A stretch of 22,382 nt of DNA. Origin: a virus. Positions 2,362 to 21,160 of the stretch are shown here, piece by piece. The translations under genes and the position numbers were made by a program. Below the pieces are notes generated by a model. It was not told where the DNA came from and ran no database searches. It worked only from the letters and a program-made list of their open reading frames with translations. How positions within the stretch are numbered: position 1 is the stretch's first letter; the number at the start of each line of letters is the position of its first letter. The DNA lies in IMG/VR virus record IMGVR_UViG_3300007533_000022, positions 1 to 22,382 of that record; one strand, written 5' to 3'.

Positions 2362-2480
2362 CCATTCCCTGATTTGAGGCGATCCCTTTGTGTTGCTCAA
2401 GACAATATGGGATCATTTAGAACAAAAACAACAAGTTGCGAGACCGATTTCCGTCGCGTTGATGCAAAGTCGAGCGACGC

Positions 2481-2488
2481 CTAAATAC
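2481..2488 (+). promoter_or_regulatory. CTAAATAC motif, possible phage late-type promoter element
   Basis: The 8-mer CTAAATAC lies 43 bases before the reductase ATG, after a possible stem-loop and before the AGGAGA ribosome-binding site (2515-2520). It resembles the T4 late promoter box TATAAATA. Exact copies also occur at 2022-2029 and, on the minus strand, at 19510-19503. Function is inferred only from similarity and position. Confidence 0.3.
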
Positions 2489-2530
2489 TCTCCGCACCCT
2501 ACTAAAACGATAACAGGAGACCCGTTTTCA

Positions 2531-5500
2531 ATGTCGAAATCCTACTTCGATGTGACCAGTAATCCCATCTATTCCGAGTTCATCAATCTCTCCCGATACG
2601 CACGATACCGTGACGATCTTGGCCGACGTGAAGTCTGGCCCGAGACCGTTGCACGGTACTTTGATTTCTTCGACGGCCATATCGAAAAGCATCATCCGAA
2701 GAGTGTCGAAGAGTATCGCAAGATCAGAAAGGAACTGGAGTCGTCGGTATTCAACCTCAAGACCATGCCGTCAATGCGCGCCCTGATGACGGCGGGCAAG
2801 GCGTTGGAACTTGACAACATGGCGGGGTTCAATCCTGTAACCGGTGACACGCGGGTGGTCACCAGAGAGTTGGGAAACATCAACATCTCGGAACTGGAAG
2901 GCAAAGAGTACACGGTTTTGAACAAAAACGGTGAGTGGACCAGTGCCACATTCAAGTCGTACGGCAGCCAACATGTCAGGAAGATCACCCTGCGGCTGGA
3001 CTCAACCACGAAGACGGTGCAAGCGACGTATAATCATCGATGGGTACTGGAGGATGGCCGCGTCAAGGCATCTTATGAGTTGGTCGAGGGAGACCGCATT
3101 GCATTCGTATCGGCTCCCAAGCCGGAACCGGACGCAGACTACATCTTGGGGGTTCGGCATGGGCTCGTATATGGGGATGGAACGGCGCTCACAAGCTGTG
3201 AACGCGTCACTGGCTACCGCATAAGGCTGTATGGCAACAACAAGGAACTGTTGCAGTTCTTTGATGGTTATCCGGTTATCTATCCGGACAGTGCCAACGG
3301 TGATCCGATTGTCATGATGCATGATGGATTCGCGCAGACGCATGCATTGAAAGAGGTACCGGATGCCAGCGAGACCGAGTCCTACCTTCTCGGTTTCATG
3401 CGGGGACTGATTGCCGCAAGCGACAGTGTAGTGAAAATGGGCCGCGTGTCTCTTTATGTATCGGCAGAGGCCGCGTTATGGATCAAGAATCACGGCGAGC
3501 GGTTGGGGTTCACGGTCCAGAGAATAGGCACGCGCTCATCCAATACCAGTAGCGGCAAGAAGCACAGTTACGTAGTGCATCTCAGTCGCTCTTCCGTGGT
3601 GGCCGAGGACTTCCTGTGCTCGTGGCAGAAGTCGAAGTTCGAGTCATGGGATTCCCCCCATTACGTGGTCACGTCGGCCACGGACGGAGGTCTTGGGCGC
3701 GTATACTGCGCTGAAGTCCCGGATACCAACACATTTGTTCTGGAAGGCGGGCTTGTTACCGGAAACTGTTCCTACCTGCCTATCGATGACCCGCGCTGCT
3801 TTGACGAGTTGATGTACATCCTGCTATGCGGGACCGGGGTCGGCTTTTCAGTTGAAGAGCGCTACGTAAACAGGCTCCCCGTCGTCTCGGAAGAGTTCCA
3901 TCATACCGAGACCCCCATTGTGGTTAGTGACTCGAAGATAGGATGGGCGAGTGCTTTGCGCGAGATGATCTCACTGCTGTACGCCGGACGCATCCCGTCG
4001 TGGGACATGAGCCGCGTGCGCCCGGCAGGCGCACGCCTGAAGACGTTTGGGGGGCGTTCCAGCGGTCCCGAACCGCTCAAGGCCCTGTTCCACTTCACGG
4101 TAGAACTCTTCTGTAAGGCTGCCGGGCGGCGTCTCACGACCCTTGAGAGCCATGACCTTGTCTGCAAGATCGCCGACGTGGTCGTGGTCGGGGGCGTACG
4201 GAGAAGTGCCCTCATCTCCCTGACCGATGTAAATGACGACCGCATGCGAGTTGCGAAGTCCGGTCAATGGTGGATCGAGAATCCGCAACGGGCGCTGGCG
4301 AACATCAGCGCGACCTACAACGAGAAACCCTCATTCGAACTGATGCTCAAGGAGTTGGTTGCATTGTATGAGTCTCGTTCCGGTGAACGTGGCATCTTCA
4401 GTCGTTACGCTTCACAGAAACAGGCGGAGAAGAATGGCCGTCGTGAGTCGGATCATGAATATGGCACGAATCCATGCCTGACTGCTGATATGCTGTTACT
4501 CACGGACCGGGGGCTACAGTCTATCGGGGCGCTCGCTTCTCGACATGAGCCATTCATGATCTACAACGGAAACCGCGAGTATCGACCATCCGTTGCATGG
4601 AGAACAGGAGTGAAGCCCGTCTACGAGGTAACGCTGAGCAATGGGTTGTCGTTCAAGGCAACGGCCGATCATCGGGTGGAGGTATGCCGCAAGCAGCACC
4701 CGTCGCAAGATTGCGACACGGAGACGATGGAAAGTCGGGTCGACGCCCTTGCTGTCGGCACAAGGATGAAGACCTTTGTCGGCAATGGCCAATGGCATGG
4801 AGAAGTACCATGTGATTTTACAGAGGCCATAATGGCCGGTTTGTTTCACGGTGCCGGCTATGTGTCCGACGTGGACCCCGATTCCATCTGCGTTGTAATC
4901 GAGGATGATGTTGAAGAAGTGGAAGCGGCGCTTCATTACGTCTATGGGAGCCACGTCCGGAAAACGACATACGCGGATGGGGCCGTCGTCTATACCATCA
5001 TGGGCATCCGAGCGCGACTTGAATCCTTGGGACTGAGTTTCGATCCATTTTCGCAACGGCAATTCCCGCGCGCGGTACTCACATGGTCATCCGACATGGT
5101 ACGGGGATTCGTTCGAGGCGTTTACAGCGCCACGGGCTCATCCATACCGGAGCAGAACCGGATCACGCTCAGGACAACCTGCAAGCCATTCATCGATGAC
5201 ATGCAGCGACTGATGGTCGCCCTCGGTTTCTCTGCGTTTACAACAACAAGTGGAGAAGGCTGCGTTCTCGATGTCGTCGGCTATGATGACTATGAGCGCT
5301 TTCGGCACGAGATCGGATTCTTGCAGCTACACGAATGCGCGATGCCCGCGAACGGTAGTGGTCCCTCCAAGGCCCCTCGTTCCGCAGAAGTGGTGTCGGT
5401 AGCATACGTGGGAGAGGAAGAAGTGTTCGACTTCCATGAGTCGGACACACATTGGGGATGGGTCAATGGCCTCAAGATTCACAACTGTAGCGAAATCATA

Positions 5501-6445
5501 TTGCGCCCGATGGAGACCTGCAATCTGTCCGAGGTCGTGATCCGACCCAATGACACCCTTAAACAACTGAAGGACAAGGTGCGCACGGCCACCATTCTTG
5601 GCACCCTGCAATCAACATTGACCCGCTTTCGTTATGTACGCAAGGCGTGGCAACGCAACGGCGAAGAGGAACGCTTGCTCGGGGTGAGCCTGACGGGCAT
5701 TATGGATCACCCGGTGCTGAATGGTTCACGTACATGGGACGGCACGGAGTCCACCGGGCCTGACAATGACATACTCAAACAGGCGCTGAAAGAACTCAAA
5801 CAGGTTGCCATCGACACGAACAAGCAATGGGCGCAGCAGCTTGGCATCAACCAGTCCGTGGCTATCACGTGTGTGAAACCAAGCGGTACCGTGTCGCAGC
5901 TATGTGATACCTCCTCTGGCATTCATCCGCGTTACTCGAAGTACTACCTTCGTTCCGTGCGCTGTGACACGAGGGACCCGATTGCGCAGTTCATGATCGA
6001 CCGGGGCTTCATTTATGAGCTTGCCCGCTCGAACCCGAACACCTACGTGTTCTACTTCCCGGTCAAGTCCCCGGACCATACCGTGACCTCGGAGCAGGTC
6101 GGGGCGATCCAGCAGCTTGAATTGTGGCGAACCTATCAGGAACACTGGTGCGAGCACAAACCGTCGATGACCTGTTACTATCGCGACCACGAGTTTCTTG
6201 ATGTGGCCTCATGGGTATGGAAGGGTTTTGATCGAATCAGCGGGGTCAGTTTCCTCCCCCACACCGATCATACCTACGAGCAGGCGCCATATATCGAGAT
6301 TTCAAAGGAAACGTACGAAGAATATCTTGACAAACAGCCCGATCCGGCTACAATTGACTGGACTGAACTCGGCCAATATGAATTCGAGGACAATACAACC
6401 GGGCAGCAGGAACTCGCGTGCTCGGCCGGTTCATGTGAGATTTGA
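2531..6445 (+). CDS. nrdJ: Class II (B12-dependent) ribonucleotide reductase with two inteins
   Basis: This precursor of 1304 residues would splice to about 656. It reduces ribonucleotides to deoxyribonucleotides for phage DNA synthesis. The extein matches monomeric adenosylcobalamin-dependent reductases: FNLKTMPSMRAL near the N-terminus, CGTGVGFSVEE, VGGVRRSALISL, NPCSEI...ETCNL and VKPSGTVSQL. By comparison with the Lactobacillus leichmannii enzyme, the NPC cysteine is the thiyl-radical Cys408 and the Cys 11 residues on is Cys419. The first Cys after intein 1 is the Cys119 partner, and the C-terminal CSAGSC pair has the same spacing as Cys731/736. I chose the ATG at 2531 because of AGGAGA 10 bases upstream. 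A GTG at 2390 would add 47 unconserved residues. Mature size is below the roughly 740 of the Lactobacillus enzyme. Confidence 0.92.
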   Translation: MSKSYFDVTSNPIYSEFINLSRYARYRDDLGRREVWPETVARYFDFFDGHIEKHHPKSVEEYRKIRKELESSVFNLKTMPSMRALMTAGKALELDNMAGFNPVTGDTRVVTRELGNINISELEGKEYTVLNKNGEWTSATFKSYGSQHVRKITLRLDSTTKTVQATYNHRWVLEDGRVKASYELVEGDRIAFVSAPKPEPDADYILGVRHGLVYGDGTALTSCERVTGYRIRLYGNNKELLQFFDGYPVIYPDSANGDPIVMMHDGFAQTHALKEVPDASETESYLLGFMRGLIAASDSVVKMGRVSLYVSAEAALWIKNHGERLGFTVQRIGTRSSNTSSGKKHSYVVHLSRSSVVAEDFLCSWQKSKFESWDSPHYVVTSATDGGLGRVYCAEVPDTNTFVLEGGLVTGNCSYLPIDDPRCFDELMYILLCGTGVGFSVEERYVNRLPVVSEEFHHTETPIVVSDSKIGWASALREMISLLYAGRIPSWDMSRVRPAGARLKTFGGRSSGPEPLKALFHFTVELFCKAAGRRLTTLESHDLVCKIADVVVVGGVRRSALISLTDVNDDRMRVAKSGQWWIENPQRALANISATYNEKPSFELMLKELVALYESRSGERGIFSRYASQKQAEKNGRRESDHEYGTNPCLTADMLLLTDRGLQSIGALASRHEPFMIYNGNREYRPSVAWRTGVKPVYEVTLSNGLSFKATADHRVEVCRKQHPSQDCDTETMESRVDALAVGTRMKTFVGNGQWHGEVPCDFTEAIMAGLFHGAGYVSDVDPDSICVVIEDDVEEVEAALHYVYGSHVRKTTYADGAVVYTIMGIRARLESLGLSFDPFSQRQFPRAVLTWSSDMVRGFVRGVYSATGSSIPEQNRITLRTTCKPFIDDMQRLMVALGFSAFTTTSGEGCVLDVVGYDDYERFRHEIGFLQLHECAMPANGSGPSKAPRSAEVVSVAYVGEEEVFDFHESDTHWGWVNGLKIHNCSEIILRPMETCNLSEVVIRPNDTLKQLKDKVRTATILGTLQSTLTRFRYVRKAWQRNGEEERLLGVSLTGIMDHPVLNGSRTWDGTESTGPDNDILKQALKELKQVAIDTNKQWAQQLGINQSVAITCVKPSGTVSQLCDTSSGIHPRYSKYYLRSVRCDTRDPIAQFMIDRGFIYELARSNPNTYVFYFPVKSPDHTVTSEQVGAIQQLELWRTYQEHWCEHKPSMTCYYRDHEFLDVASWVWKGFDRISGVSFLPHTDHTYEQAPYIEISKETYEEYLDKQPDPATIDWTELGQYEFEDNTTGQQELACSAGSCEI
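2834..3766 (+). other. Intein 1 in the reductase (311 aa, class 3-like, Pro1)
   Basis: The intein lies between extein residues GFN and CSYLPID. It starts PVTGDTRVV, with proline (codon CCT) where the nucleophilic Cys1 normally sits, and ends GGLVTGN followed by +1 Cys. Block B reads ATYNHRW (Thr65, His68, Trp70), block F reads RVYCAEV (Cys292), and Thr309 lies two residues before the terminal Asn311. Trp at B:12, Cys at F:4 and Thr at G:5 form the WCT signature of class 3 inteins, which splice without an N-terminal nucleophile. The penultimate residue is Gly, not His. A central LAGLIDADG-type region has one intact-looking motif (residues 104-117, with GDG) and one degraded motif (185-198, IAASD), so homing activity is doubtful. 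Confidence 0.9.
4475..5485 (+). other. Intein 2 in the reductase (337 aa, class 1)
   Basis: The intein lies between extein GTNP and CSEIILRP. It has canonical ends: Cys1 in CLTADMLLLTDRG, block B TADH (Thr63, His66), block F EVFDFHESDTHWGW, and a terminal His336-Asn337 before +1 Cys. It therefore should splice by the standard class 1 pathway. The middle holds two LAGLIDADG-like segments, IMAGLFHGAGYV and VRGFVRGVYSATGS. In both, the usual catalytic aspartates are replaced (GAG instead of GDG; SAT instead of DAD), so the homing endonuclease is probably inactive. Splicing restores the conserved NPCxE motif of the reductase active site. Confidence 0.93.
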
Positions 6446-9713: not shown

Positions 9714-11414
9714 ATGTATATCGACGCGGAACGCATTCGAGGTACGAATGACGTCATGGTGTGGTGTCGAGACGACAAGGGCACGCTCTATACCTATCAG
9801 GACACCATGAAGCACTACTGCTACGTGGAGAGCCCCAAGGGAGAGTATCAATCCATCTTTGGCCACAAACTGGCCCGAGTAGACTTTGATACGTGGGGTG
9901 CCTTCGAGCGATACAAGCAGAGCAAATCCAACCTGTTCGAGTCGGATATCAATTCGATCTACAAGTACCTCTCCGATACCTTTCATGATGCCTCGCCGGG
10001 AACACTCAATGTCGGACTGTTTGACATCGAGGTCTATCCCAATCTGGAGGCAGGAAAGGGGTATCCAATCCACGACGATCCGCACGGGTACATCAACTCG
10101 ATCTCCCTGTTCGACCGCACGAAACAGGTGTATCACCTGTTCTTGCTGGACTCGGACCATATCACGGTCCAGTCCCCGGACGGCCTGCCGGTCGAACACC
10201 ATTACCATTCACAGGAAATACACCTGCTTTATGACTTCTTCCATACCATCAAGCCGATAGACATTCTCAGCGCTTGGCATGGTGACGGCTTCGACATCCC
10301 CTACATGATCGCGCGCACGGCCATGTTGCTGGGACCCAATGCCACCAGACATTTCTGTCGGAGTGACTTCCGGCCGATTGCTCGTACCCTCAATGACGAC
10401 TACGGTAATGAAGAGACCCGGTACATGTTGGTCGGGCGCCCGCACATTGACATGCTCAAAGCCTACAAGAAGTTCACGTTCGAAGAGCGGCCCTCCTACA
10501 AGCTCGACAGTATTGCCGAGGAAGAGGTCGGTGAACGCAAGACCGAGTACAGTGGTGACCTCGGCAGGCTCTACAACGAAGACCGCCAGACCTTCTATGA
10601 CTACTCCCTGCGCGATACCTACCTACTCAAGAAGCTGGATGACAAGCTGCGCCATATTGACCTAGTGGTGACCATGGCACGGCAGGCCAGCGTTCGTTTC
10701 AACGACGTCTTTGGCAGCATTCGGTATCTGGAACACACGATTCTCAACTACTGCCATTTTCACAAGGACCCGATGCTGATCGTCCCTGACAAGAAGGACC
10801 ATCTACGGGAAGCGTTTCCGGGGGCATTGGTATTCAAGACGATGACCGGGGTTCATGGTTGGTCCACGTCCATCGACCTGACCTCACTATACCCATCCGT
10901 GATCATGGCACTCGGGATCAGTCCGGAGTCCATTGTCATGCAGTGTGAGAGTCGCGGAGAGGATTTCGTTCGAATCGTGGAACGTCAAGAGACCATGGTC
11001 ACCGTGGTGGTGCGCAACAATTTGACGGATGAACGGGAGTCGTTCACCATCAGCGCCCGTGAACTTGACGATGTGATCCGTAGCAATGGCTACACGCTTT
11101 CTGCCAATGGCACCATCTTCGATGGCAGGGGTGGTATCATTCCCGAAGTGATTCGTCTGTGGTTTGAAACTCGAAAGCAATTGAAAGACCGGATGAAAGT
11201 CTGCGCGAAGGCAGGCGACCACGAGGGCGAGAAGTTCTACGACATGCGCCAACACATCCAGAAGATCAATCTAAACTCACTCTACGGCATGTTGGCCAAT
11301 CCGTTCTCCCGTTTCTTTGATATCGAAATGGCCCGCTCCATCACGCTCACCGGTCAGGAGATCGCGAAACACCAGACGCGGATGGCAGATGAGATCGTCA
11401 GGGGCGCCGTATGA
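9714..11414 (+). CDS. 43A: Family B DNA polymerase, N-terminal part (gp43A)
   Basis: The 566-residue product is the exonuclease plus most of the polymerase domain of a T4 gp43-like replicative polymerase. Visible motifs: Exo I FDIE (Asp104, Glu106), Exo II GDGFDIP (Asp194), Exo III YDYSLRD (Asp301), polymerase motif A DLTSLYPS (Asp388) and motif B KINLNSLYG (Lys517, Tyr524). The proofreading site is complete. The protein stops 40 residues after motif B, before motif C, which lies in the next gene; neither part can polymerise alone. The stop overlaps the 43B start as ATGA. Split gene 43 is known in some T4-like phages of Aeromonas. The ATG follows the stop of the small membrane gene directly. 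Confidence 0.95.
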   Translation: MYIDAERIRGTNDVMVWCRDDKGTLYTYQDTMKHYCYVESPKGEYQSIFGHKLARVDFDTWGAFERYKQSKSNLFESDINSIYKYLSDTFHDASPGTLNVGLFDIEVYPNLEAGKGYPIHDDPHGYINSISLFDRTKQVYHLFLLDSDHITVQSPDGLPVEHHYHSQEIHLLYDFFHTIKPIDILSAWHGDGFDIPYMIARTAMLLGPNATRHFCRSDFRPIARTLNDDYGNEETRYMLVGRPHIDMLKAYKKFTFEERPSYKLDSIAEEEVGERKTEYSGDLGRLYNEDRQTFYDYSLRDTYLLKKLDDKLRHIDLVVTMARQASVRFNDVFGSIRYLEHTILNYCHFHKDPMLIVPDKKDHLREAFPGALVFKTMTGVHGWSTSIDLTSLYPSVIMALGISPESIVMQCESRGEDFVRIVERQETMVTVVVRNNLTDERESFTISARELDDVIRSNGYTLSANGTIFDGRGGIIPEVIRLWFETRKQLKDRMKVCAKAGDHEGEKFYDMRQHIQKINLNSLYGMLANPFSRFFDIEMARSITLTGQEIAKHQTRMADEIVRGAV

Positions 11415-12331
11415 GCACGCGTCCGAGGAGGGGCACCGCCGGTAGCTTTCATACGTGGTTCGAGCAGGAGGACGGCAGCATGCGCCTCCTGCAATACGAT
11501 GCCACACATGTCATCGCGGGCGACACGGATTCATCATACGTCTCGTTGGATTCCATCTTCAAGCCCGATGCGAGCGTCGATGATGTAGTCAGTTATGCCA
11601 ACAATCTTGGCATAAAGGTCAACCAGAGCTTCCCGCGATTCATGCAACGGGTGTTCAATGTCGGCGAAAATCGCATGTCCTTCAACGGCGAGCAGGTGAT
11701 CGTGACCGACCGGGAAGTCGTGGCCGACAAGGCCCTGTTCAAGGCCAAGAAGAACTACATGATGCACTTGGTCGACAAGGACGGGAAGCGCATAGACAAG
11801 AACAAGATTACCGGCTTGGAGATCATCAAGGCGGATACCCCCGGTTGTGTGCAGGATTTCCTTCTGAAAGCTGTCCTGAGCATTGTTGATGGCGCTGACT
11901 ATGAAACGATCCGGGACATGATTGCGGAGTTCAAGTCCGAGTATCACGAGAAGACGTTTCAGGAGATCGGCCGGCCAATGTCGGTGAAAGTGCTCAAGAA
12001 GTGCGAAGACGAATACAAGACGTCCGGGACCATGAAGGGGTTCAGTTACCATGTCCGCGCCGCCATGTTTTACAATAGCCTCTGCGGACCGAACGACATA
12101 AGAATCCGGTCGGGTGACAAGATCGCAATCTGTTACATCGACCATCCAGACAGCAAGTACATTGCGGTTCCCATCGATGCCGACGTACTACCAGACTTTG
12201 TCGCCGACATGAGCGTGGATTGGAAGACGCAATGGAAGACTGTAGAGAAGAAAATAGGAAACTATCTCAAGTCCCTAGGATGGGACATCCAGAGCCGTCA
12301 GGAAGATGTTCTCAATCAATTCATAGAGTAA
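11411..12331 (+). CDS. 43B: Family B DNA polymerase, C-terminal part (gp43B)
   Basis: The 306-residue product carries polymerase motif C, AGDTDSSYVSLD (Asp38, Asp40), which supplies a catalytic aspartate to the palm, followed by a thumb region containing KAKKNYMMHLVDKDGKR and DTPGCVQDFL. The C-terminal end (EDVLNQFIE) may serve for clamp binding, as the gp43 C-terminus does in T4. The ATG at 11411 overlaps the 43A stop, and AGGGG lies 6 bases upstream, so reinitiation by the same ribosome is likely and would give equal amounts of the two parts. About 25 N-terminal residues have no obvious counterpart in unsplit gp43 and may help the parts associate. Confidence 0.93.
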   Translation: MSTRPRRGTAGSFHTWFEQEDGSMRLLQYDATHVIAGDTDSSYVSLDSIFKPDASVDDVVSYANNLGIKVNQSFPRFMQRVFNVGENRMSFNGEQVIVTDREVVADKALFKAKKNYMMHLVDKDGKRIDKNKITGLEIIKADTPGCVQDFLLKAVLSIVDGADYETIRDMIAEFKSEYHEKTFQEIGRPMSVKVLKKCEDEYKTSGTMKGFSYHVRAAMFYNSLCGPNDIRIRSGDKIAICYIDHPDSKYIAVPIDADVLPDFVADMSVDWKTQWKTVEKKIGNYLKSLGWDIQSRQEDVLNQFIE

Positions 12332-15209: not shown

Positions 15210-15400
15210 CCATCGTCAACCGGGTGCATTTGTGGTACCAACGACGGAAATCCTACGCCTATTGTCGAGAGATACTGCCATTGCGTATCCCGGTATACAA
15301 GGCGCGGTCAAGAGGCGTCTACCATTGCACCGGGAGCGGCGTCTACCATATCGGTGATCTGTATTGCTTCTGCAACTTCGATGGATACACCAATGGCTGA
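15206..15400 (+). CDS. Small Tyr/Cys-rich protein, unknown
   Basis: The 64-residue protein (MTIVNRVHLWYQRRKSYAYC...) has 10 Tyr and 4 Cys, including a CFC pair near the end. It overlaps the upstream basic gene by ATGA and the clamp-loader start by 8 bases, a pattern typical of a translated link in an operon. No family is recognised. The Cys residues (one at about 20, one at 41, then the CFC pair at 54-56) could bind metal, but spacing is not that of a known finger. Confidence 0.55.
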   Translation: MTIVNRVHLWYQRRKSYAYCREILPLRIPVYKARSRGVYHCTGSGVYHIGDLYCFCNFDGYTNG

Positions 15401-16388
15401 TATCTGGTTCCAGAAGTACCGGCCTCGGTCATTCGACGAGTACGCGTTTCAGAATGAAACCGTCAAGCGCTTCGTTCAAGACTGTATCGAGACCGGCATC
15501 ATTCCCAATCTCCTGTTGAGTGGCGGTCCGGGTACCGGCAAAAGCAGCTTGGCGCAAGTCCTGCTCAACGAACTGTCCATCGAGCGCAGTGATGTGTTGC
15601 AGATCAATGCATCGGCCGAAAGCGGCATCGATACGATCCGCGAACGCATTGTGAGCTTCTGCCGCACATTCCCTAGCGGGGCATTCAAGGTGGTCCTGCT
15701 CGAAGAAGCGGATGGCCTCACGCCGAATGCACAGCGAGCACTTCGGCAACTGAGTGGCGAGGACTATCTGGACACGGTGCGATTCATCTTCACGTGCAAC
15801 TACCCCTCCAAGATCATCGAGCCGCTGCACAGTCGATGCCAGTGCATCGAGATCAGTCAACCCGACAAGGACATGGTCTTCGATCTGGTTGCGGGCATAC
15901 TGGAAAACGAACTCCCGGAAGATCGTCAGGCGCTCTCGGACGAAGATATCGAGACGATTACCGTACACATTGAACGGTTCTATCCGGACCTCAGACGCAT
16001 CATCAATTCCATCCAGCAGGGGATCGACAAGGAGGGCAACATCCACTTGCCCGCCGGCAAGACGGATCACGAGGACATGGAACGATGGGAACATGCATGG
16101 GAGCACCTTTCGGACCGATTGCTCGACGGTCAAGCGCTGGATCAGGTGATTCGGGTCCGGTTCCTGCCATTGACGGCAGTTGTCACGACCGACAACTTTG
16201 ACACGGTCTACACGATCATGTATCGCAACATCGAGGGATTGAACAGATTTTGGACGGATGGTAATGTCACCGAGATGGTAATCCCGCTCATTGCGGAACA
16301 TTTGTATCGGGCATATACCATGGCAAACCAGCAAATGAATCTTGATGCATGCCTGTATCGAATGATCCATGAAGCACAGGCGCAGTGA
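15393..16388 (+). CDS. 44: Clamp loader large subunit, AAA+ ATPase (gp44-like)
   Basis: The 332-residue protein starts MADIWFQKYRPRSFDEY, the typical RFC/gp44 opening. Walker A is GGPGTGKSS (about residues 45-53), Walker B is VVLLEEADGL, and the sensor/arginine-finger region reads FTCNYPSKIIEPLHSRCQCI with the SRC motif. A C-terminal helical collar follows. In T4 four gp44 and one gp62 open the clamp and load it on primed DNA using ATP. I chose the ATG at 15393 because homology begins there; ATG 15381 or GTG 15354 would add a few residues. Unlike T4, the gene 62 partner is not adjacent but about 1 kb downstream. Confidence 0.93.
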   Translation: MADIWFQKYRPRSFDEYAFQNETVKRFVQDCIETGIIPNLLLSGGPGTGKSSLAQVLLNELSIERSDVLQINASAESGIDTIRERIVSFCRTFPSGAFKVVLLEEADGLTPNAQRALRQLSGEDYLDTVRFIFTCNYPSKIIEPLHSRCQCIEISQPDKDMVFDLVAGILENELPEDRQALSDEDIETITVHIERFYPDLRRIINSIQQGIDKEGNIHLPAGKTDHEDMERWEHAWEHLSDRLLDGQALDQVIRVRFLPLTAVVTTDNFDTVYTIMYRNIEGLNRFWTDGNVTEMVIPLIAEHLYRAYTMANQQMNLDACLYRMIHEAQAQ

Positions 16389-17408: not shown

Positions 17409-17837
17409 ATGGCCAAATACCAGAACGACATTCATCAAGTCCTGCGACAGGTCAATCAAGGCAACACCCTCTACTTCAACGAACTACAAGACAGTGAAGA
17501 ACGCCGCAAAGCGCTGTCGCCATTCGTCGTGTTTCATTTCCTCGCGGGCGCGCGCGACCACCGCGCCGCACATGTCGTGATGACCAATGATCAGGTGAAC
17601 CCATACCTGTTCTCCCTGTCACAACACCCGCTGCTCCTGTACAAACTGATGACGAGCGCGAACTGTGGCATTGGCGATAACGATCAATACCAGTTCTCCA
17701 AGCCGCGACAGGATACGATCACGATCACGGAACGACTGATTGCACGGCACTTCGGATGCTCCATACGGGAAGCCCGGGACATCATGACGCTGATCGACAA
17801 GAAAGAACTGGATCAGATCAAGGATATGTACGCATGA
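17409..17837 (+). CDS. 62: Clamp loader small subunit (gp62-like)
   Basis: The 142-residue protein is assigned by a patch resembling T4 gp62 (recalled): ITERLIARHFGCSIREARDIM here against IIKLLAKRYQVNTNDAINY in T4. It also resembles gp62 in its helical C-terminus (LIDKKELDQIKDMYA) and in lying within the replication block with gene 44. It is shorter than T4 gp62 (187 residues). In the loader, gp62 is the single non-ATPase subunit holding the gp44 tetramer. No clear Shine-Dalgarno sequence precedes the ATG, which may keep expression low, consistent with a 1:4 stoichiometry. It overlaps the following gene by ATGA. The family call is moderate. Confidence 0.62.
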   Translation: MAKYQNDIHQVLRQVNQGNTLYFNELQDSEERRKALSPFVVFHFLAGARDHRAAHVVMTNDQVNPYLFSLSQHPLLLYKLMTSANCGIGDNDQYQFSKPRQDTITITERLIARHFGCSIREARDIMTLIDKKELDQIKDMYA

Positions 17838-18583
17838 GCGACATATATACGGAGGTCTTCGGCAAGACCATGGAACAGGTCTACCAGAACGGGATCGTCA
17901 CCGGGCTGGAAAAGGACTATCGATGCAGCGTGTGTGGACGCGAGTACGTGCGTCTGAGCGCAGCCAAGAAACACTTCGAGCGGCGCGACTGTCATGACTA
18001 TCGCAGCTTGTTCAAAGGCTCTCGGTTCGAACAGGAAATGGAAAGGCTGCTGATCGACATGAAGAGAAGGCTGCTGATCGCCACAGAGTTCAGGACGAAC
18101 TCACATATGGGGATACATACCATACATACCACAGGTGAATACGATCTGCTCGCGAAATACACGGCCTTTTGTATCAAACACATGCGCAATACACGCAATC
18201 GATCCATGTACTCCAGATTCCTGTTGCACGAACTCGTCCCCGATTATTCCTTGTCCCCGATGTCAATACGAAAAGAGGTGCATCAACACATCAACACGGT
18301 ACTGAAAGTCGGCGGCAAGGGGACCTATCTGTACAAGTTCCGGGATTACGCCCTGCAACGGCCGGAACCGCCCCAATACTACTCCGCATTCATACACACA
18401 TACCAGACGGACCTGAGCGACGACGACGAGTTCCTGTTATGTTCATTGGAACGAGTAGACCTGCCATTGGAACTGGCTCGCGCGGTGTTCCATCTGGATT
18501 CCCGGATCGAACGTCTCAGTGACACACAGAAGATGCGACTGGAACACCTCATGGATCGAATCGACATGTTGACCAGACTATGA
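17834..18583 (+). CDS. Zinc-finger protein of the replication operon, unknown
   Basis: The 249-residue protein starts at the ATG overlapping the gene 62 stop. Residues about 31-57 form a zinc-finger-like motif CSVCGREYVRLSAAKKHF followed by ERRDCH (C-X2-C-X12-H-X5-C-H), embedded in an otherwise helical, charged protein. The C-terminal half is helical, with segments ARAVFHLDSRIERLS and MRLEHLMDRIDML that could be coiled. It overlaps the next gene (PolIII-alpha-like) by ATGA. Tight coupling with 62 and the polymerase-like gene suggests a DNA-transaction role, e.g. loader or adaptor. No resemblance to T4 gp59 or RegA was convincing by eye. Confidence 0.75.
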   Translation: MSDIYTEVFGKTMEQVYQNGIVTGLEKDYRCSVCGREYVRLSAAKKHFERRDCHDYRSLFKGSRFEQEMERLLIDMKRRLLIATEFRTNSHMGIHTIHTTGEYDLLAKYTAFCIKHMRNTRNRSMYSRFLLHELVPDYSLSPMSIRKEVHQHINTVLKVGGKGTYLYKFRDYALQRPEPPQYYSAFIHTYQTDLSDDDEFLLCSLERVDLPLELARAVFHLDSRIERLSDTQKMRLEHLMDRIDMLTRL

Positions 18584-19182
18584 CGCAGACATTCGACATT
18601 GACATTGACATTGCACCGGGCGTAGAACGTTCCGAGTATGGCACCCGGGCGATGATCCACGAAAACTACAGGATCAAACCACATCCCTGTGGGGTGTACC
18701 TGCATCCCGTGGCGACCGACCCCGAAACCGGGTTGTGTTCCATATGTTATTGGGACGATGATGTCTACCAGTATCGCAAGGTCGATCTGTTGGTCAATAC
18801 TGCGTATGCGATCTTCGACCGCCCCGGAGCCAACAAGGAGCTGGTACTTGCGGCCTACCATCGAGTGGTGGATTGGGACCTCTTCTGTACCACCAAGTAC
18901 CTGAAGCGGTTACCCCACGTGAAGGGGCACATCGAGTTCGTACAACAGATACAGCCGCGTTCCATTCATGATCTGGCCGATCTGCTGGCACTGATCCGGC
19001 CCGGGAAGGTGCATCTGATCGATGCCTATCTGTCCGGGAAGAAAGAACACGTACGCAAGAACCTGTACGTGCGACCACCCAACAACAAGATGTACTTCAA
19101 GAAGTCACACAGCTATGCCTATGCGGCCATGATCATCTCCGTGTTCAACGAGATGGTCCAGAATCATGCGTTCTTGGAATGA
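18580..19182 (+). CDS. Condensed DNA polymerase III alpha-like protein (C-family palm/fingers motifs)
   Basis: The 200-residue protein contains, in the order found in bacterial DnaE, motifs of C-family polymerases. DIDID (residues 6-10) resembles the palm PDFDVDF. HPCGVYLHP (35-43) resembles KHAGGVVIAP. QYRKVDLL (64-71, Asp69) resembles the region of the third catalytic Asp, GLVKFDFL. IQPRSIHDLADLLALIRPG (124-142) resembles [20 protein letters not shown]-type sequence. FKKSHSYAYA (173-182) resembles FNKSHSAAYA. Full DnaE is about 1160 residues; PHP domain, clamp-binding and OB domains are absent here. Whether it polymerises DNA is unknown. The DIDID segment is encoded by a GACATT hexamer repeat (18595-18612) and may be fortuitous. 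It overlaps the upstream zinc-finger gene by ATGA, and its 3' end overlaps the minus-strand gene by 19 bases. Confidence 0.7.
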   Translation: MTQTFDIDIDIAPGVERSEYGTRAMIHENYRIKPHPCGVYLHPVATDPETGLCSICYWDDDVYQYRKVDLLVNTAYAIFDRPGANKELVLAAYHRVVDWDLFCTTKYLKRLPHVKGHIEFVQQIQPRSIHDLADLLALIRPGKVHLIDAYLSGKKEHVRKNLYVRPPNNKMYFKKSHSYAYAAMIISVFNEMVQNHAFLE

Positions 19183-19496
19183 GGGCGTACGGATTGTCTG
19201 CGCTGCTTGATCTTGGGAGTGACCTCCAGATTGGCGGTCGAGTCCCGGATGTTGTTGCGATGAATCAGGTTGGCGGAAGGTAGGTGGAACTGCGGGAAAT
19301 GCGTGGTGGCATAGATGGAGAACCGCTTGGTCGAGTGTGTGAATCGCCATAGCAATGCCAACAGGGTGAGGTCCGGGTCTTCGGCCATGGAGAAGTCAAA
19401 GAAGTAGATGTGCTTCTTTGACACATAGTCGACAATCCCGTAGTATTCCTTGCCACTGTTAAGCGTTATTCGATCAAAAACTGGATATGTAGTCAT
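19164..19496 (-). CDS. Lone minus-strand gene, unknown small protein
   Basis: Reading leftward from the ATG at 19496, the product has 110 residues. The N-terminal half looks like a small alpha/beta domain (ITLNSGKEYYGIVDYV, HIYFFDFSMAEDPDLTLLALLW, FSIYATTHFPQ), and the last 30 residues are basic and polar. It is the only convincing minus-strand gene here. Its 3' end overlaps the PolIII-like gene convergently by 19 bases. An upstream ATG at 19574 would add 26 residues but would overlap the divergent gene. No ribosome-binding site precedes 19496; instead CTAAATAC lies 6 bases upstream, so expression may be late and leaderless. Composition is coherent enough to be real, but no family is recognised. 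Confidence 0.65.
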   Translation of the reverse strand: MTTYPVFDRITLNSGKEYYGIVDYVSKKHIYFFDFSMAEDPDLTLLALLWRFTHSTKRFSIYATTHFPQFHLPSANLIHRNNIRDSTANLEVTPKIKQRRQSVRPHSKNA

Positions 19497-19502
19497 GGAC
19501 GT

Positions 19503-19510
19503 GTATTTAG
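19503..19510 (-). promoter_or_regulatory. CTAAATAC motif before the minus-strand gene
   Basis: On the minus strand CTAAATAC lies 6 bases before the ATG at 19496, resembling the T4 late box TATAAATA. If used as a late promoter the transcript would start at or just inside the start codon, unless the gene starts elsewhere. Confidence 0.3.
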
Positions 19511-19529
19511 TCCAACGTGGACGCTTGCA

Positions 19530-20147
19530 GTGAAAATACTCACACCAGTTGTTGATGTGTTCTCCTTGATGCACGCAGACGCCCTAGCAGCGTCCACGAA
19601 CTACGTGGTGATAGCATCGGTGTTCTTCATCTATCGAGAACAGACGGATATCTATCGCGTGTTCCGCTGTACATGGAAGTCCCCCGGCATGGGCACCGGA
19701 TTGGAAGAAAACATCGGCATCGATACGATCCTGCATTCATTCGATGTCGGTTCGCCCCATTACCAGTTCCAAGAGATTCCGGCCGAGGACCTGATAGGGC
19801 GATTCCTGTGGTCTGCTCATGCCATTCGAGCCGATGCCCCGTGGCGTCAAAACGATGGTCAGTGGTGCCCCATGTATCGTACCCGCGAATCCATCGTCAA
19901 TCTGATAAGTAAAAGCAAAGATGGTTCGAACCCGGTCTCTGCCCTCATACATATCTGCGCGCACACGGTCACCAAAGACGTGCGGTTTATCGACATTTCG
20001 GATGTGATAGAGAACCTGACTATCGATGAACTCACGCAGTTCATCATGTCAAAACGATTCATGAATAGTCATGGCCACAGACCCTTCGATGATTGTCATA
20101 CTTACCGGGATATCGCGCAGCAGTTGGTGTTTGATCTGAGGTTCTAA
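19530..20147 (+). CDS. Unknown protein upstream of primase
   Basis: The 205-residue product starts at GTG 19530, or at ATG 19569 (192 residues); neither has a good ribosome-binding site. It begins with a short hydrophobic strand region (NYVVIASVFFIYREQTD), contains two HxxxxxC-type clusters of His/Cys spread along its length (ALIHICAHT and a late DDCHTYRD), and ends in a helix. It lies divergent from the minus-strand gene and overlaps the primase start by one base (TAATG), so it is likely co-translated with primase. No family is recognised. Confidence 0.7.
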   Translation: MKILTPVVDVFSLMHADALAASTNYVVIASVFFIYREQTDIYRVFRCTWKSPGMGTGLEENIGIDTILHSFDVGSPHYQFQEIPAEDLIGRFLWSAHAIRADAPWRQNDGQWCPMYRTRESIVNLISKSKDGSNPVSALIHICAHTVTKDVRFIDISDVIENLTIDELTQFIMSKRFMNSHGHRPFDDCHTYRDIAQQLVFDLRF

Positions 20148-21160
20148 TGGGTGATCTGACGCGGGAAATCGAGGCTCGAATCCATCAGGCGATATCACTT
20201 GGTGCCGCCACCGATTCCGGGTTTCATTCGTATCTGTGTCCGATCTGTGAGGACACCAAACACGGCAGGGCTGGTTTTCGCTTTGACGACGAAGCGATCA
20301 TCTACAATTGCTTTCGCGCGTCATGCACCGCCTCGTGTTCCTACAAGGAAGGACAATACGTCAATCGTAGGTTCCGGCAGTTGATGGACGCAATCGGCGT
20401 CGAGTTGCCGATTGAGGTTCTGGCCGCCAATCGTAACGCGCGACGACACGAACAGGAGAAGCTTCAGGCAGAGCTGTATCAGCCATTCGCGATTCATGAT
20501 GATCTCCGTCCTGTGATCGAGGAAGAAGGACTCAAGCGCCTCACGGACTATCACGCCATCCGCGCCTATCGATCCTCCAACAGGACATTATTGAGATATT
20601 GTCCCGCCAGTGTTGCCCGTTCCATCTACGTGACCACGAATGAGTGTCATGGATCGAACCGATCCATACCACAGGGAATTGTGGCCTTCTGTTGCTGGTA
20701 CGGGGAGTGTCTGGCCGGCATCGTGTACTATAACCATCTGCATCCGGAAAGGCAGACGGCCCGATCCGATTACCTGATCGATTCTCGTTCCGCGCCGGGC
20801 ATGATATACATGCCCATGGGGTATCTGCCAGACAATCCCATTGTCGTCGAAGGCATCTTCGACGCGCTCGTGTTCCCGCATCATGCCGTGGCCCTGCTTG
20901 GTAACCACGTGACCAAGACACAGGCATGGTACCTGCGCAATTCCAATCCGATCCTGCTACCGGATCGGACCGGATCGAAATTCTTTGAAAGCGCCAAGAC
21001 CTACAACTGGAGCATGTCGATACCCGACTGGAAGTTCAAGGACTTGGACGAGGCGGCGGAAGCGGTTGGGGAATTGGTCGCGGCCCGGGTTGTTCACAAC
21101 AGCATCATCGACGAACCCAAGCTGGCCGAAATCGCGTTCAAGATGTATCACGAACTGTAA
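20147..21160 (+). CDS. 61: DNA primase (gp61-like)
   Basis: The 337-residue protein matches T4 gp61 (342 residues) in size and domain order. An N-terminal zinc-binding module has Cys31 and Cys34 (CPIC) with later Cys55 and Cys60 (CFRASC). A TOPRIM catalytic core follows with the acidic motif IVVEGIFDAL, a GNHVTKTQ turn, and ILLPDRTGS as the aspartate-bearing strand. It synthesises RNA primers for lagging-strand replication with helicase gp41. GAGG lies 6 bases before the ATG, which overlaps the previous stop. The last motif has DRT rather than the common DxD, so metal-site details may differ. Confidence 0.9.
   Translation: MGDLTREIEARIHQAISLGAATDSGFHSYLCPICEDTKHGRAGFRFDDEAIIYNCFRASCTASCSYKEGQYVNRRFRQLMDAIGVELPIEVLAANRNARRHEQEKLQAELYQPFAIHDDLRPVIEEEGLKRLTDYHAIRAYRSSNRTLLRYCPASVARSIYVTTNECHGSNRSIPQGIVAFCCWYGECLAGIVYYNHLHPERQTARSDYLIDSRSAPGMIYMPMGYLPDNPIVVEGIFDALVFPHHAVALLGNHVTKTQAWYLRNSNPILLPDRTGSKFFESAKTYNWSMSIPDWKFKDLDEAAEAVGELVAARVVHNSIIDEPKLAEIAFKMYHEL

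Follow-up and report, generated by a model that had tools for sequence, protein, structure and literature searches.

The 200-residue protein encoded at positions 18580 to 19182 of the window, by which we mean the whole 22,382-base stretch of viral DNA analysed here, is a further member of the split minimal PolIII proteins, a kind that is already known, and it probably acts as the C-terminal unit (C-unit) of a two-piece minimal accessory polymerase of the PolIII alpha type beside the family B polymerase (PolB) of the same phage. In the mechanism that we propose, the C-unit would contribute the aspartate triad that binds metal, the palm's second half and short fingers, and a separate N-terminal unit (N-unit) of about 170-195 residues would supply the first half of the palm with its GRGS phosphate-binding block. 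The two proteins would bind each other and assemble into a C-family active site devoid of PHP, thumb, clamp-binding, OB and tau-binding domains, and the pair may polymerise DNA with low processivity, as an accessory to the T4-type PolB replisome, in primer extension, gap filling or repair. Among these roles, primer extension or gap filling is the most likely; primer extension is suggested because the C-unit gene lies near clamp-loader and primase/helicase genes.

Iyer et al. 2021 (PMC7824862) have described such a split minimal PolIII, accompanied by a family B polymerase, in jumbo phages of group 2.2 and also used it to model the ancestral PolIII. As described there, this system is, like the window protein, phage-specific, placed beside a family B polymerase and without the other PolIII domains. 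It comprises a standalone C-terminal unit that binds Mg2+ and template, a feature shared by the window protein, and a standalone N-terminal unit that binds NTP, which was not found on the 22-kb window fragment and which its named relatives have. The C-unit of the paper corresponds to phrog_11778 and its N-unit to phrog_11127, the C-unit of the window being equated with the former by the description given there. The paper deals with jumbo phages, whereas the window is a record of 22,382 bases whose nearest named relatives have genomes of 141 kb. Two proteins noted earlier in other papers, namely CBB_328 (172 residues, called a truncated short PolIII alpha; PMC5259590) and Atu_ph07 gp316 (a short PolIII alpha; PMC6102473), are most likely N-units. 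The reading made from the sequence alone knew of no described function for such a protein; this holds in so far as no experimental test of split minimal PolIII was found in PMC papers under an open licence (a set that takes in few subscription papers or preprints), but the kind of protein itself had been described (PMC7824862). To this the present analysis adds the location of the break, evidence from structure on how the two units tile, the absence of a thumb-sized segment, co-occurrence counts, and members in 141-kb genomes.

The C-unit gene and its two catalytic motifs are placed as follows.

18580 to 19182, plus strand: C-unit gene, the C-terminal unit of a split minimal PolIII alpha (200 residues, ATG start), holding the second half of the palm and short fingers according to PF17657, phrog_11778, the AF2 model and an 80-sequence alignment
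18595 to 18609, plus strand: DIDID (Asp6, Asp8, Asp10), the PDxDxDF motif, E. coli 401/403/405, invariant in 80/80
18778 to 18786, plus strand: KVD (Lys67, Asp69), the KxDFLG motif with the third catalytic Asp, E. coli K553/D555, invariant in 80/80

PolIII-like segments collinear with DnaE had been claimed within these 200 residues, and those quoted are present in the order seen in bacterial DnaE (DIDID, HPCG, KVD, RPG, FKKSH). The DIDID, rightly taken for the palm Asp motif, aligns with P400-F406 (PDFDVDF) of E. coli K-12 DnaE; HPCGVYLHP carries H35 and G38 and matches H511-G514; KVDLL carries K67 and D69; DLADLLALIRPG carries R140 and P141, with R639-G641 as its counterpart; and FKKSHSYAYA carries K175 and H177, with F756-H760 as its counterpart. 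We take D401, D403 and D555 of E. coli DnaE to be the catalytic residues. The conserved positions had been given as Asp7, Asp9 and Asp69, of which the last is correct and the first two are off by one, the motif aspartates being residues 6, 8 and 10.

Profile searches agree with this assignment. The check proposed together with the original claim, a profile search for PolIII alpha, yielded a Pfam match above the cut-off (PF17657, DNA_pol3_finger, E=3e-5; score 23.9 bits, cut-off 22), and the PHROG family phrog_11778 ('DNA polymerase', 197 residues) matches residues 4-194 with E=2.6e-39. A phmmer search of PDB sequences with the C-unit gave no PolIII match (best E 0.71, an unrelated oxidoreductase), because a single-sequence search is too weak here. 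A match to PF14206 (Cys_rich_CPCC, E=6e-4, below cut-off) was rejected as spurious, since there is no Cys among the 90%-conserved columns. The palm/fingers fold and the collinear motifs are shared with bacterial DnaE and PolC (E. coli 2hnh; Taq 2hpi/3e0d; PolC 3f2b), but with 200 residues against the 1160 of bacterial DnaE the window protein lacks the PHP domain, the first half of the palm, the thumb, the long fingers insert, and the beta-binding (clamp-binding), OB and tau-binding domains. The GS (GRGS) motif is likewise absent from its chain; the reading frame begins at the PDxDxDF motif and so leaves no room for the GS motif, which belongs to the first half of the palm. Homologous core motifs also occur in phage DnaE-like polymerases of the single-chain type (phrog_405 and phrog_11165; weak matches, E=0.013 and 0.25), which, unlike the C-unit, are long single chains.

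The AlphaFold model of the C-unit, obtained with the 80-sequence alignment as input, has a pLDDT of 92.2 and a pTM of 0.84. When this model was compared with known structures by VIA-align, the 14 best rows were PolIII-type polymerases with Z from 10.4 to 6.2, followed by an unrelated chain at Z 3.1; for helical models, the tool warns, a Z below ~13 can reflect a common arrangement. Of these rows, ten bear PolIII or PolC in their title and four plainly 'DNA polymerase'; the latter (5lew, 7pu7, 9qrn and 9qrl) we take to be DnaE/PolC, in keeping with the residue range. The top row is 3e0d (Z 10.4, 195 residues, 3.5 A), and residues 4-198 of the model superpose on E. coli 2hnh 400-781 with Z 9.7. 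The 12 best Foldseek rows against the PDB comprise 11 titled PolIII and 5lew, with a best E of 1.4e-3 at probability 1.00, none at or below 0.001, and probabilities under 0.5 in rows 9-12. Among viral models in BFVD, 16 rows have a probability of at least 0.94, and 8/8 of the named ones are DNA polymerases, three of them named DnaE. Sequence identity to PolIII-type structures is 13-18%, and hhalign of the C-unit profile with E. coli DnaE reaches only 65%, over residues 529-642. The drastically reduced C-family fold that had been read from the letters is thus upheld by the Pfam and PHROG matches and by the 14 best VIA rows, and the structure comparison that could have revealed an unrelated fold returned PolIII-type polymerases instead. 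The spacing of the motifs locates the reduction: D10 and H35 are 25 residues apart in the C-unit versus 106 in E. coli DnaE, with ~80 residues missing from a segment that is presumably the thumb, and R140 and F173 are separated by 33 versus 117, while the distance from D69 to R140 is nearly kept (71 versus 84).

Relatives of the C-unit are widespread in phages. By tblastn (E up to 1), 73 phage records match it, with 63 covering 80% of the query or more, all at below 60% identity. They include phages of the RaK2, GAP32, CBB, PBECO4, PA5oct and Callisto types and further Atu_ph07, SCTP-2, XacN1, RAS14 and Vibrio 2.275.O, the nearest named relatives being the Alishewanella phages Slicko01/Slickus01 (42.8% identity, 141-kb genomes). 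The 10/73 records that cover less than 80% of the query were set aside: among the matches listed, most come from Lactococcus phages whose annotation has a DNA polymerase (III alpha subunit), and they represent ordinary PolIII matches. A single-sequence scan of viral contigs with the C-unit found no relative; an alignment-based scan of IMG/VR found relatives encoded in 584/599 pattern-matched stretches among the matches listed. In bacterial chromosomes, 8/25 pattern-matched stretches encode a relative, and all 8 records are titled MAG and are probably misbinned phage contigs.

The active site is preserved throughout this family. When the window protein is aligned with 79/80 metagenomic loci (one, L039, was omitted as a contig edge cuts its N-terminus), D6, D8, D10, H35, G38, K67 and D69, and likewise W99, L111, R140, P141, K143 and H177, are identical in 80/80 rows, of which 75 are distinct and which form 63 clusters at 90% identity; the scan patterns held the RP and K.H motifs, so that the conservation of R140, P141, K175 and H177 arises partly by this selection, and the aspartates, H35, G38 and K67 are in no scan pattern. 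The conservation of the motif residues in homologues, on which the identification had been said to depend, is thus complete for D6, D8, D10 and D69. All 79 metagenomic C-units are 184-210 residues long with an intact active site. In an 18-row alignment with named phages, which were gathered by tblastn without patterns (the unannotated record L017 was omitted), H35, G38, K67, D69, R140, P141, K143 and H177 never vary, and 17/18 rows have the DIDID aspartates, the exception being Atu_ph07 with a mis-set start codon. The annotated start of this C-unit (FDI40_gp074; L008, locus 3001-3561) lies too far downstream and skips DIDID, which is found in frame upstream of it. The dN/dS ratio is 0.014-0.042 in 10 C-unit pairs from five close relatives, which are rough values as dS exceeds 1 in 7/10 pairs, and the C-unit thus appears to be under purifying selection. 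As a matter of annotation, the C-unit is named 'putative membrane protein' in JN882285 and KU574722 (L005 and L007), and the RefSeq note for GAP32 claims one transmembrane segment; the match of the predicted structure to the PolIII fold argues against a membrane protein.

The missing first half of the palm is found as a separate protein in many of these phages. This N-unit is a standalone protein of 168-196 residues, depending on the chosen start (17 measured), with the GRGS block. PF07733, which covers the first palm half, is present in 18/22 other C-unit records, namely 12/12 named phage genomes and 6/10 large metagenomic records, with E-values of 1.4e-8 and 7.7e-11 for two N-units. In the 22-kb window no N-unit was found with PF07733, nor with an N-unit profile on open frames of at least 40 codons (E up to 10), and the N-unit gene of this phage is assumed to lie beyond the fragment. 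A profile from 17 N-units matched in 16/49 C-unit records and identified a separate N-unit in 15; a single-chain PolIII-like protein in one contig (G041) had scored as an N-unit and was taken off the count. Among C-unit records of at least 100 kb, 8/12 have the N-unit and four lack it (111, 292, 148 and 161 kb; possibly fragments), and the remaining 29 records without a match are contigs of 6.6-82.5 kb. The N-unit of Atu_ph07 was omitted from the N-unit alignment (17/18 used) and from the distance test described below, and 5/85 short or cut rows (L061, L124, L152, L155 and L171) were omitted from a larger N-unit alignment.

The position of the break can be given closely. N-units finish at the GRGS block, as in GAP32 with the terminus '...WGLGRGSSVSSYCLYLIGLHLVDSIKYDLDVNEFLKW', and end in '...EFLK' or similar, and C-units start with '(MP)DIDIDF' or similar; the break therefore falls at about residues 394-399 of E. 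coli DnaE. By hhalign the N-unit profile corresponds to E. coli DnaE 273-393 (96%). The N-unit model (pLDDT 86.3, pTM 0.60) superposes with residues 76-179 on E. coli 278-393 in VIA, where the 16 best rows have Z from 13.2 to 8.4 (11 PolIII/PolC and 5 'DNA polymerase') and the next one 2.7. In Foldseek the best E is 0.036, and polymerases of these same kinds fill the first 17 rows. For the first ~75 residues of the N-unit, the structure comparison found no counterpart in PolIII. On E. coli DnaE, the two models thus cover residues 278-393 (N-unit) and about 397-781 (C-unit) and do not overlap. No open frame among 201 sequences matched both profiles as an N+C fusion. The G041 contig (L201, G041:C1:3701-5401, minus strand) encodes a C-unit and, in addition, a 563-residue single-chain PolIII-like protein without PHP domain, which matches phrog_405 (E=7e-69) and holds the GS motif and DLPDVDIDF in one chain; this protein is a possible relative of the pre-split form.

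The two units are inherited together. In 50,697 phage records, the RaK2 N-unit as query gave 63 matches and the RaK2 C-unit also 63, and in the best 60 of 63 rows of each query 56 records are common to both. Among the listed rows that are not shared, XbC2 and MIJ3 hold a C-unit by C-unit tblastn, and we infer that rows beyond the best 60 of each query account for the rest except MT836517 (a 10-kb record, weak match to the N-unit query only) and PP728206 (an unverified 109-kb record, matched by the C-unit query only). Pairwise distances of N-units and C-units correlate with r=0.83 across 21 genomes, and 0/5000 permutations were as high; judged from such distances, this is a sign of shared descent, not of contact. 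The two genes lie apart, by ~33 kb in RaK2, 11 kb in Slicko01 and 3.1 kb in a metagenomic record (G013), where the order is uvsW-like, N-unit, gp44-like, gp62-like, zinc finger, C-unit, minus-strand gene, primase and helicase, with gene names read from sequence and order and further small frames interspersed.

In the window, the C-unit gene is surrounded by a T4-type replication set.

9714 to 11414, plus strand: N-terminal part of PolB (exonuclease, palm), phrog_262 positions 14-561, E=6.4e-122
11411 to 12331, plus strand: C-terminal part of PolB (GDTDS motif), a separate overlapping ORF, phrog_262 positions 571-850, E=5.8e-46
15393 to 16388, plus strand: clamp-loader ATPase, T4 gp44-like, phrog_168 E=2.3e-59, scanned from 15396
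17409 to 17837, plus strand: clamp-loader small subunit, T4 gp62-like, phrog_225 E=2.6e-5
17834 to 18583, plus strand: zinc-finger-like gene with a single CxxC...H...C, directly upstream of the C-unit gene, zf-C2H2 E=0.07, below cut-off
19164 to 19574, minus strand: convergent gene (open frame) overlapping the 3' end of the C-unit gene
20147 to 21160, plus strand: DNA primase-like gene downstream of the C-unit gene, phrog_47 E=8.8e-7 over a short stretch

Also encoded in the window are a clamp-like protein (phrog_223, E=1.2e-5) and an SSB (phrog_224, E=3.9e-6). The family B polymerase reported for this phage is therefore present, at 9714-12331, and so are the reported ATGA overlaps, at 17834-17837 between the gp62-like and zinc-finger genes and at 18580-18583 between the zinc-finger and C-unit genes. 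PolB was found in 13/15 records tested, namely the window and 12/12 named C-unit genomes, the two misses being 15-kb fragments. In 68/88 loci the C-unit gene is abutted at its 3' end by a minus-strand open frame of at least 90 codons; the corresponding figure is 85/683 for other plus-strand frames of at least 120 codons in 80 metagenomic loci. This convergent gene is an annotated CDS in 15/17 annotated loci. An annotated primase and/or helicase lies downstream of the C-unit gene in 15/17 loci, with XacN1 and RAS14 as exceptions. The zinc-finger gene was rejected as a constant neighbour, as a crude test found its motif in only 32/82 loci with enough upstream DNA.

How, then, would the pair work? 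Of the three options offered by the sequence-only reading, a minimal polymerase is the best, but the C-unit is only the C-terminal half of it, the N-terminal half being separate in relatives. Several results count against a two-piece polymerase: the loss of the thumb, which bears on the grip on primer-template; the absence of the N-unit from the window and from 4/12 records of at least 100 kb; and the modest Foldseek E-values together with the 65% hhalign result for the C-unit profile. An active site that is invariant although thumb, clamp-binding and OB domains are missing would also suit a pair that keeps a nucleotidyltransferase site and uses another substrate, or serves the PolB replisome as a nucleotide sensor or regulator, and is not a template-directed polymerase. 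We consider this unlikely, as the fingers motifs (RPG, KxH...Y) are kept besides the catalytic aspartates and the C-unit gene sits in a replication cluster. The other two options, a non-catalytic binder of clamp or primer-template and a decoy that interferes with host Pol III, would fit the small size and the fact that the C-unit alone is an incomplete polymerase. They are disfavoured, and quite improbable in our judgement, because the metal-binding aspartates are invariant in 80/80 sequences and dN/dS is low (0.014-0.042 among five close relatives). PolIII partners bind the PHP, beta-binding and tau-binding regions, whereas the parts kept here are palm and fingers, and the C-unit is co-inherited with an N-unit.

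That only about 200/1160 residues are left might suggest that a host dnaE was captured and is decaying here. Such decay is contradicted by the active-site conservation, the dN/dS values and the intact lengths (184-210 residues in 79 aligned relatives), and purifying selection, conserved synteny and relatives in 584/599 stretches among the matches listed make it very improbable. Chance resemblance of an unrelated fold, to which the 13-18% identity to PolIII-type structures might point, can be dismissed almost entirely: Pfam, PHROG, Foldseek and VIA rule it out, and the conservation and the AlphaFold model also stand against it. The two-piece accessory polymerase thus remains the preferred reading. 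A more specific form of it, in which N-unit and C-unit make up a working thumb-less two-subunit C-family polymerase that extends primers and hands them to the T4-type PolB, is put forward tentatively, with somewhat less than an even chance. To our knowledge, the pair would be smaller than any known C-family polymerase. If active, it would represent a very small C-family core that can do without thumb, PHP, clamp-binding and OB parts, and a replisome in which a PolB of archaeo-eukaryotic type is combined with a PolIII core of bacterial type. As two proteins of about 170-200 residues are concerned, a bench test would be direct.

In addition, PolB of the window is itself divided into two overlapping ORFs, with an ATGA at 11411. 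The PolB of Slicko01 is divided at the same place into two annotated CDS (36% and 38% identity to the window), and a sequencing error is unlikely because Slicko01 shares the split, position included. If the two-piece reading of N-unit and C-unit is true, the window phage and its Alishewanella relative would have both replicative polymerases as two-part enzymes. A literature search for a split gp43 found nothing on it. In the same region, PolB of PAC2 carries an N-terminal intein part (TIGR01445 and PF14890 both exceed their cut-offs); a C-terminal intein part is matched less strongly, below cut-off, and a gene for a Hef-like homing endonuclease lies between the two. This arrangement suggests a possible origin of the PolB split. 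Inteins apparently occur elsewhere in the window too: an adenosylcobalamin-dependent ribonucleotide reductase of 1351 residues at 2390-6445 appears to be interrupted, with an intein C-terminal region at residues 438-460, an N-terminal one at 696-763 and a LAGLIDADG region at 903-976, which would be consistent with two inteins.
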